Assembly: GCA_004210715.1 (NCBI GenBank)
Contig: SEDB01000004.1
Location: 1-33,239, forward strand
DNA: 33,239 bases
Direction: 5' to 3'
DNA from: Pedobacter sp.
GTDB taxonomy: Bacteria > Bacteroidota > Bacteroidia > Sphingobacteriales > Sphingobacteriaceae
Position numbers and translations under genes: made by a program. The stretch's first letter is position 1. The number at the start of each line of letters is the position of its first letter. The notes under the pieces are model-generated. The model was not told the DNA's origin. It made no database searches and saw only the letters and a program-made list of their open reading frames with translations. Below are positions 8,547-9,815 of this stretch, piece after piece.

Positions 8547-8567
8547 TTGTTATTCTATCTTTATAAA

Positions 8568-9086
8568 ATGACTCCTGCCAAAGTAAAAGCTTCTATACAT
8601 AAAATTGTTGATGCCTACAAAGCCAAACTTTCTCAATACAATGAAGAAACTTTTCAGGTTACGCCACCAATTGATGGCTGGAGTTATAGCGAGGTTTATT
8701 CGCATATTTTTGATGCAAGTTTACTCTCATTAATTGCGATGCAAAATTGCATTAATGGCAAAGGCGAAGATCAGCCTACTCATTTTATGGTTAAAGTGAT
8801 ACTGTTTCTTGGCGCATTTCCGCCAGCACAAAAATATAAAGTGCCAAAACGAATGGTAGACCGCGTAAAAAAAATAACCAAAGCCGAAGCCCTTGATTTT
8901 ATTCTAGAATTTGAGCAATCTTTAGCAGATATCTTTCCATCTATCTCTGGAGCTGATAAAAAAATTAAGACTAAACACCCTCGCCTGGGTTATCTAAATG
9001 CTAAACAATGGCTTCGTTTTATTGAAATCCACCTTAAACATCATCTAAAACAATTAATCAGGATAGAAGACAGTTTTCAGCGTTAA
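8568..9086 (+). CDS. DinB family protein
   Basis: ORF (ATG at 8568 more likely than upstream start) with GWSYSEVYSHIFDASL, and HLKHHLKQLIRIE near the C-terminus. Confidence 0.75.
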   Translation: MTPAKVKASIHKIVDAYKAKLSQYNEETFQVTPPIDGWSYSEVYSHIFDASLLSLIAMQNCINGKGEDQPTHFMVKVILFLGAFPPAQKYKVPKRMVDRVKKITKAEALDFILEFEQSLADIFPSISGADKKIKTKHPRLGYLNAKQWLRFIEIHLKHHLKQLIRIEDSFQR

Positions 9087-9122: not shown

Positions 9123-9815
9123 ATGAAGAATTTCATCTATCTCTTGGCAATATTTATTTTCTGTTCATGCAAAGGCGAGAAAAAAGATGCTAGCCAAACG
9201 GTTATCTCAACGCCTGCAGGATTAGAAGGACTTCAAAAAAGTAATACAACAGTTGTTCCCGCAACGCAAGCTTCCGCTAAAACATTAATTTTCAATCCGA
9301 AACATGGTCAACCTGGTCATACTTGTGCTTTGGCAGAGGGAGCGCCTCTAAATCAAACTACAGTACCTCAGCCACAACAAAACATTACTCCAACACAACC
9401 GGCCGCCACAACTATACCAGCATCTGCAAGTATCGGTGCCAAAAAGTTAAACCCTAAACATGGCGAACCTGGACACAGGTGTGATATTGCTGTAGGTGCA
9501 CCACTAGATTCAAAACCTTTGCAAGCCGCTCAAACCAGTTCATCACAGCCAGTGGTTGCGCAAACGGTAAATACAAAAGTTGCAAAAGGAATGAATCCGC
9601 CACATGGCGAACCCAATCACAGGTGTGATATTGCCGTAGGTGCGCCTTTAAATTCAAAACCTGTGCAAACTACAAACGCAACCGATACCAAAACACCTTT
9701 AATTTTTCCAACTGAAGCAAAAACTCCTGAAATTCAAACTGGCGCCAAACTGAATCCAAAACATGGCGAACCTGGCCACAGATGCGATATTGCCGTAGGT
9801 GCGCCGCTCACATAA
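9123..9815 (+). CDS. Repeat-containing lipoprotein with four NPKHGEPGHRCDIAVGAPL motifs
   Basis: 230-aa ORF, lipoprotein-type signal MKNFIYLLAIFIFCSCKGEKK, four 19-aa repeats separated by low-complexity Thr/Gln/Pro/Ala linkers. Confidence 0.85.
   Translation: MKNFIYLLAIFIFCSCKGEKKDASQTVISTPAGLEGLQKSNTTVVPATQASAKTLIFNPKHGQPGHTCALAEGAPLNQTTVPQPQQNITPTQPAATTIPASASIGAKKLNPKHGEPGHRCDIAVGAPLDSKPLQAAQTSSSQPVVAQTVNTKVAKGMNPPHGEPNHRCDIAVGAPLNSKPVQTTNATDTKTPLIFPTEAKTPEIQTGAKLNPKHGEPGHRCDIAVGAPLT
9294..9809 (+). repeat. Four spaced 57-nt coding repeat units (9294-9350, 9450-9506, 9594-9650, 9753-9809)
   Basis: NPKHGQPGHTCALAEGAPL / NPKHGEPGHRCDIAVGAPL / NPPHGEPNHRCDIAVGAPL / NPKHGEPGHRCDIAVGAPL. Confidence 0.92.

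Follow-up and report, generated by a model that had tools for sequence, protein, structure and literature searches.

A small envelope lipoprotein of Bacteroidota is probably an undescribed, putative metal-binding 'bead string'

What might a small lipoprotein do whose histidines all lie within a short segment repeated four times? The question is raised by an open reading frame at 9123-9815 in the 33,239-nt stretch of Pedobacter sp. DNA analysed here (the window), for which a preliminary description, made from the letters alone, had claimed four His/Cys repeats behind a lipoprotein-type signal and a plausible metal, haem or redox ligand set. We propose that the protein is probably an undescribed, putative metal-binding 'bead string' of the Bacteroidota envelope. 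The gene, its parts and its neighbours are laid out as follows.

8547..9086, + strand: upstream neighbour, DinB-like, in a genus-conserved slot and outside the proposed function
9123..9815, + strand: repeat lipoprotein gene, 230 aa, from the open reading frame and relatives
9123..9170, + strand: signal peptide up to the lipobox Cys16
9294..9350, + strand: repeat 1, divergent, NPKHGQPGHTCALAEGAPL, residues 58-76
9450..9506, + strand: repeat 2, NPKHGEPGHRCDIAVGAPL, residues 110-128
9594..9650, + strand: repeat 3, NPPHGEPNHRCDIAVGAPL, residues 158-176
9753..9809, + strand: repeat 4, NPKHGEPGHRCDIAVGAPL, residues 211-229, followed by one Thr and the stop codon
9847..11166, + strand: downstream neighbour, flippase (Polysacc_synt), in a genus-conserved slot

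The four repeats are real, as the pattern NPxHGxxxHxCxxxxGxPL did not arise even once in 20,000 protein shuffles versus four copies observed, each of 19 aa and conforming to NPxHGxPxHxCxxxxGAPL. Copies 2 and 4 are identical at the protein level, copy 3 departs from them in two residues and copy 1 is the divergent one, so that the consensus given earlier fits only three copies, and the ligand spacing, described before as H-x3-4-H-x-C, is exactly H-x4-H-x-C throughout. The last repeat is indeed C-terminal, but one Thr separates it from the stop codon at which it had been said to end. All eight His residues of the protein fall inside the repeats, and its only other Cys residues are two in the signal and lipobox. 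Because repeats 2 and 4 encode the same protein segment with 11 synonymous-codon changes in the compared 63-nt stretches, their likeness has been kept by selection and not by recent DNA duplication.

The N-terminus, MKNFIYLLAIFIFCSC, carries a signal peptide and a lipobox Cys at residue 16, as expected of a bacterial lipoprotein, and the lipobox pattern recurs in 142 of 149 full-length relatives with the Cys nearly invariant, in agreement with the initial lipoprotein assignment. Export of Bacteroidota lipoproteins to the surface is signalled by K-(D/E)2 or S-D-D-D-D near positions +2 to +6 (PMC5080379); the corresponding residues are K-G-E-K-K in the window protein, and across the family the most frequent residues at these successive positions are K, K, E, E and E.

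Whether the repeats fold or stay disordered, a prediction proposed in the preliminary description, was addressed with AF2. The full-length model was poor overall (pTM 0.27), with linkers near pLDDT 50 and a low repeat 3, but repeats 1, 2 and 4 reached pLDDT 72-86 with a bridge between their first and last residues, and the isolated motif, modelled with 59 copies in the alignment, scored 93 and 89 over residues 11-30. The motif is thus confidently predicted, in metal-free models, to form a closed loop carried on disordered linkers.

The His and Cys residues of this loop are almost invariant. Relatives lacking them while keeping the rest of the motif, named at the outset as the finding that would count against a ligand role, were sought by scoring windows on non-ligand residues alone, which yielded 393 windows, or 392 after one off-register match was set aside. 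H/H/C was kept in 391 of the 392, the exception being H/H/H in a Myroides relative (L106); because the loci had been found by the motif, independence holds for all copies but one in each protein. Of the 826 His residues in the mature proteins of the family, 794 fall inside the motif, as do 394 of the 410 Cys residues. Among 12 Pedobacter-type orthologues, pN/pS was 0.097 in the motif versus 0.47 in the linkers, with pS equal in both (0.68 and 0.66), so the repeats are under strong purifying selection, as their conservation against divergent linkers had implied.

An alternative is a metal-free docking peptide, a loop that engages a protein partner and whose His and Cys serve to shape it or to make disulfides. 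The N, P, G, P and L of the motif are conserved as strongly as the ligand residues, and the loop forms in AF2 models with no metal present, both of which would suit such a peptide. We nevertheless regard it as unlikely, because it leaves unexplained both the near-total confinement of His and Cys to the motif and the metal-gene neighbourhoods described below, and because a single Cys per loop precludes a disulfide within the loop.

By sequence and literature searches, the family appears to be undescribed: a Pfam scan of the window protein gave nothing significant, the PDB held no match by sequence or by fold, a search of one literature collection for the motif, CCGSCS and HYC_CC_PP found no paper, and the NCBIfam match was spurious. 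This match, to TIGR04101 (CCGSCS motif protein), reached 36.2 bits for the whole window protein against a cut-off of 28, but the conserved region does not account for it: repeat 2 scored 13 bits on its own and 17.7 bits together with its linker, neither reaching the cut-off. Four relatives tested (L086, L108, L161 and L048) did not match, and a genome search with the model returned no matches, the window included. With a repeat or linker alone falling below cut-off or giving no match, and with the four relatives negative, we rejected membership as a composition artefact.

The family is spread patchily across Bacteroidota. The motif was present in 19 of 60 relatives, in 33 of 396 genomes sampled across the phylum and in 4 of 247 genomes from the order of a Prolixibacteraceae genome, while a named-genome scan gave at least 120 stretches with the motif, all but one of the matches listed being Bacteroidota; plasmids, phages and viral contigs searched for the motif gave no match. 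The survey of copy number suggested in the preliminary description showed a constant architecture over 160 distinct proteins, namely a small lipoprotein with mostly two or three copies, the last usually C-terminal. A Paenimyroides member (L097) has an extra His-rich stretch, HEGHDHSSHAGHDHG. The sole case outside the phylum, a Bdellovibrio metagenome-assembled contig (L161), was judged to be probably a misbinned Bacteroidota contig, from a neighbouring gene and from the Flavobacterium-like N-terminus of its repeat lipoprotein.

Gene context, the other part of that survey, favours soft metals of the copper/arsenic type in the relatives. In Chryseobacterium, Kaistella and Epilithonimonas, the repeat gene adjoins a small Cys-rich gene and a gene for an HMA-domain TonB receptor, arranged either as repeat, Cys-rich, HMA/TonB or as Cys-rich, HMA/TonB, repeat (gaps 20-170 bp), and this direct adjacency suggests a pathway shared with the receptor. 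The repeat is far shorter than HMA, a folded domain of the CxxC type, and unrelated to it in sequence. The Weeksellaceae Cys-rich protein (L073:7328-7744 and L177:5745-6113) is unnamed, has 120-138 aa and ends in W[QE]PPK[IL][GA]; Pfam gave no match, nor did NCBIfam for the one tested.

At three loci of Bacteroidales type (L225, L223 and L228) the repeat gene is held in an ars operon, with ArsR called by Pfam (L225, L228), ArsM and ACR3 by NCBIfam (L225, L223), ACR3 identified for L228 at the level of its genome, and the remainder read from sequence. In each of these genomes the only over-cut-off ACR3 sits 2-3 kb from the repeat gene, and a crude estimate, allowing 6 kb in each of 10 genomes of ~3.5 Mb, puts three such hits by chance at ~1e-6, assuming an independence that is not assured; the three loci may go back to one ancestral event. 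At other Bacteroidales loci, the repeat gene lies within an efflux island of RND and outer-membrane type that includes HMA, HMBD-CusB and CusA/CzcA genes (L221), near a copper P-type ATPase in a CopA island (L222), and next to genes for ArsP and DsbD (L224), where a multicopper oxidase of CopA-like kind, below cut-off, is ~6 kb away. As CusA/CzcA-type pumps were matched in all 60 relatives' genomes, a lone Cus neighbour carries little weight and co-occurrence with such pumps is uninformative. No copper/arsenic-type genes were in view at L089, L196 and L226, and L112 was too short to tell.

The loops might instead bind Zn(II), Fe or haem, or serve as redox thiols. His2Cys sets suit Zn(II) too, and two-component genes flank some repeat-gene loci, but the neighbours found are of the copper/arsenic type, and CxxCH, CxxC and haem or zinc-uptake neighbours were unseen in the annotated loci, which makes this alternative slightly less likely even than a docking peptide. 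The ligand-like character of the His/His/Cys set is supported; nothing was found to favour the haem or redox roles first suggested for it.

Taking these observations together, we consider it fairly probable that the protein is a lipid-anchored string of His2Cys loops that buffers or hands over a soft metal for envelope copper/arsenic systems. Two to four copies of a 19-residue NPxHGxPxHxCxxxVGxPL loop, strung on disordered Pro/Thr/Ala/Gln linkers and each closed by pairing of its ends, would each offer two His and one Cys to one soft metal ion, most likely Cu(I) and possibly As(III) through the Cys of several loops, and the tethered beads would buffer or relay this metal at the envelope. More tentatively, and with somewhat less than even confidence, we suggest that the loop is a new Bacteroidota-specific metal-binding mini-domain of ~19 residues, with His2Cys round one soft ion, whose lipid-anchored beads feed copper import via HMA-TonB receptors or protect the envelope beside arsenite/copper export. 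If true, an unnamed family of lipoproteins found across Bacteroidota would gain a function, the known metal sites would be joined by a very small one of the His2Cys kind, and copper/arsenic handling at the Bacteroidota envelope could be approached directly.

This arrangement is reminiscent of SilE/PcoE, a small exported periplasmic metal 'sponge' from silver/copper resistance clusters that is mostly disordered without metal and has repeated His motifs, those of SilE being His/Met motifs (MxxHxxxxxHxxM, HxxMxxxHxxM) that fold into helices (PMC5008109). The repeat lipoprotein is likewise small, exported, predicted to be mostly disordered and furnished with repeated His motifs; as to setting, two relatives (L221, L222) lie in a copper/silver-type cluster and the window locus does not. 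By contrast, it is unrelated in sequence, its loops are His2Cys and non-helical, it is lipid-anchored and it belongs to another phylum; the His/Met motifs were not found, the core in the window and family being HGxPxHxC, and Pfam and PDB gave no match to any SilE/PcoE-like family. The simplest account is an analogy with SilE in working principle and not family membership.

Within Pedobacter, the window included, DinB and the flippase flank the repeat gene. Of 13 congeners that lack it, 12 have DinB directly adjoining the flippase with a gap of ≤62 bp, and the gene is thus an accessory one in the genus. The thirteenth (L237, G004) retains a relic between the two, at ~885-1132 on the DinB strand, with an intact signal peptide and lipoprotein N-terminus and zero repeats. 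No metal genes were seen beside the repeat gene in the window, Pedobacter, Flavobacterium, Pontibacter and Chitinophagaceae loci, whose neighbours were family-scanned in part. The HMA-TonB receptor was found in 0 of 37 genomes of the genus at the cut-off used, so its co-occurrence with the repeat gene is uninformative there.

That most lineages, the window's included, are without a metal neighbour, and that the gene is gained and lost within its slot, would fit a repeat lipoprotein of general surface or adhesive function brought near metal genes in some lineages by chance or hitch-hiking. The finding of two unrelated types of metal cluster in different orders, a Weeksellaceae association kept through rearrangement and strongly constrained ligands all speak against it, and we hold it to be highly improbable. 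Favouring the soft-metal string, we infer that the window's copy would act likewise despite having no metal neighbour.

The window protein has a fourth repeat, and most gene-carrying congeners have only three. One congener (L012, G024) shows a decayed fourth repeat just past the stop codon of its repeat gene, which suggests that the window's fourth copy predates the split from that congener. The sequence CATCTTTG, which we take to resemble the Bacteroidota -7 promoter element, precedes both the repeat gene (upstream of 9123) and the flippase (upstream of 9847), so each may have its own promoter. Elsewhere in the window, at 1-1952 on the - strand, an M1-type peptidase gene is split in two open reading frames with intervening sequence apparently missing, and is apparently a pseudogene or an assembly error.
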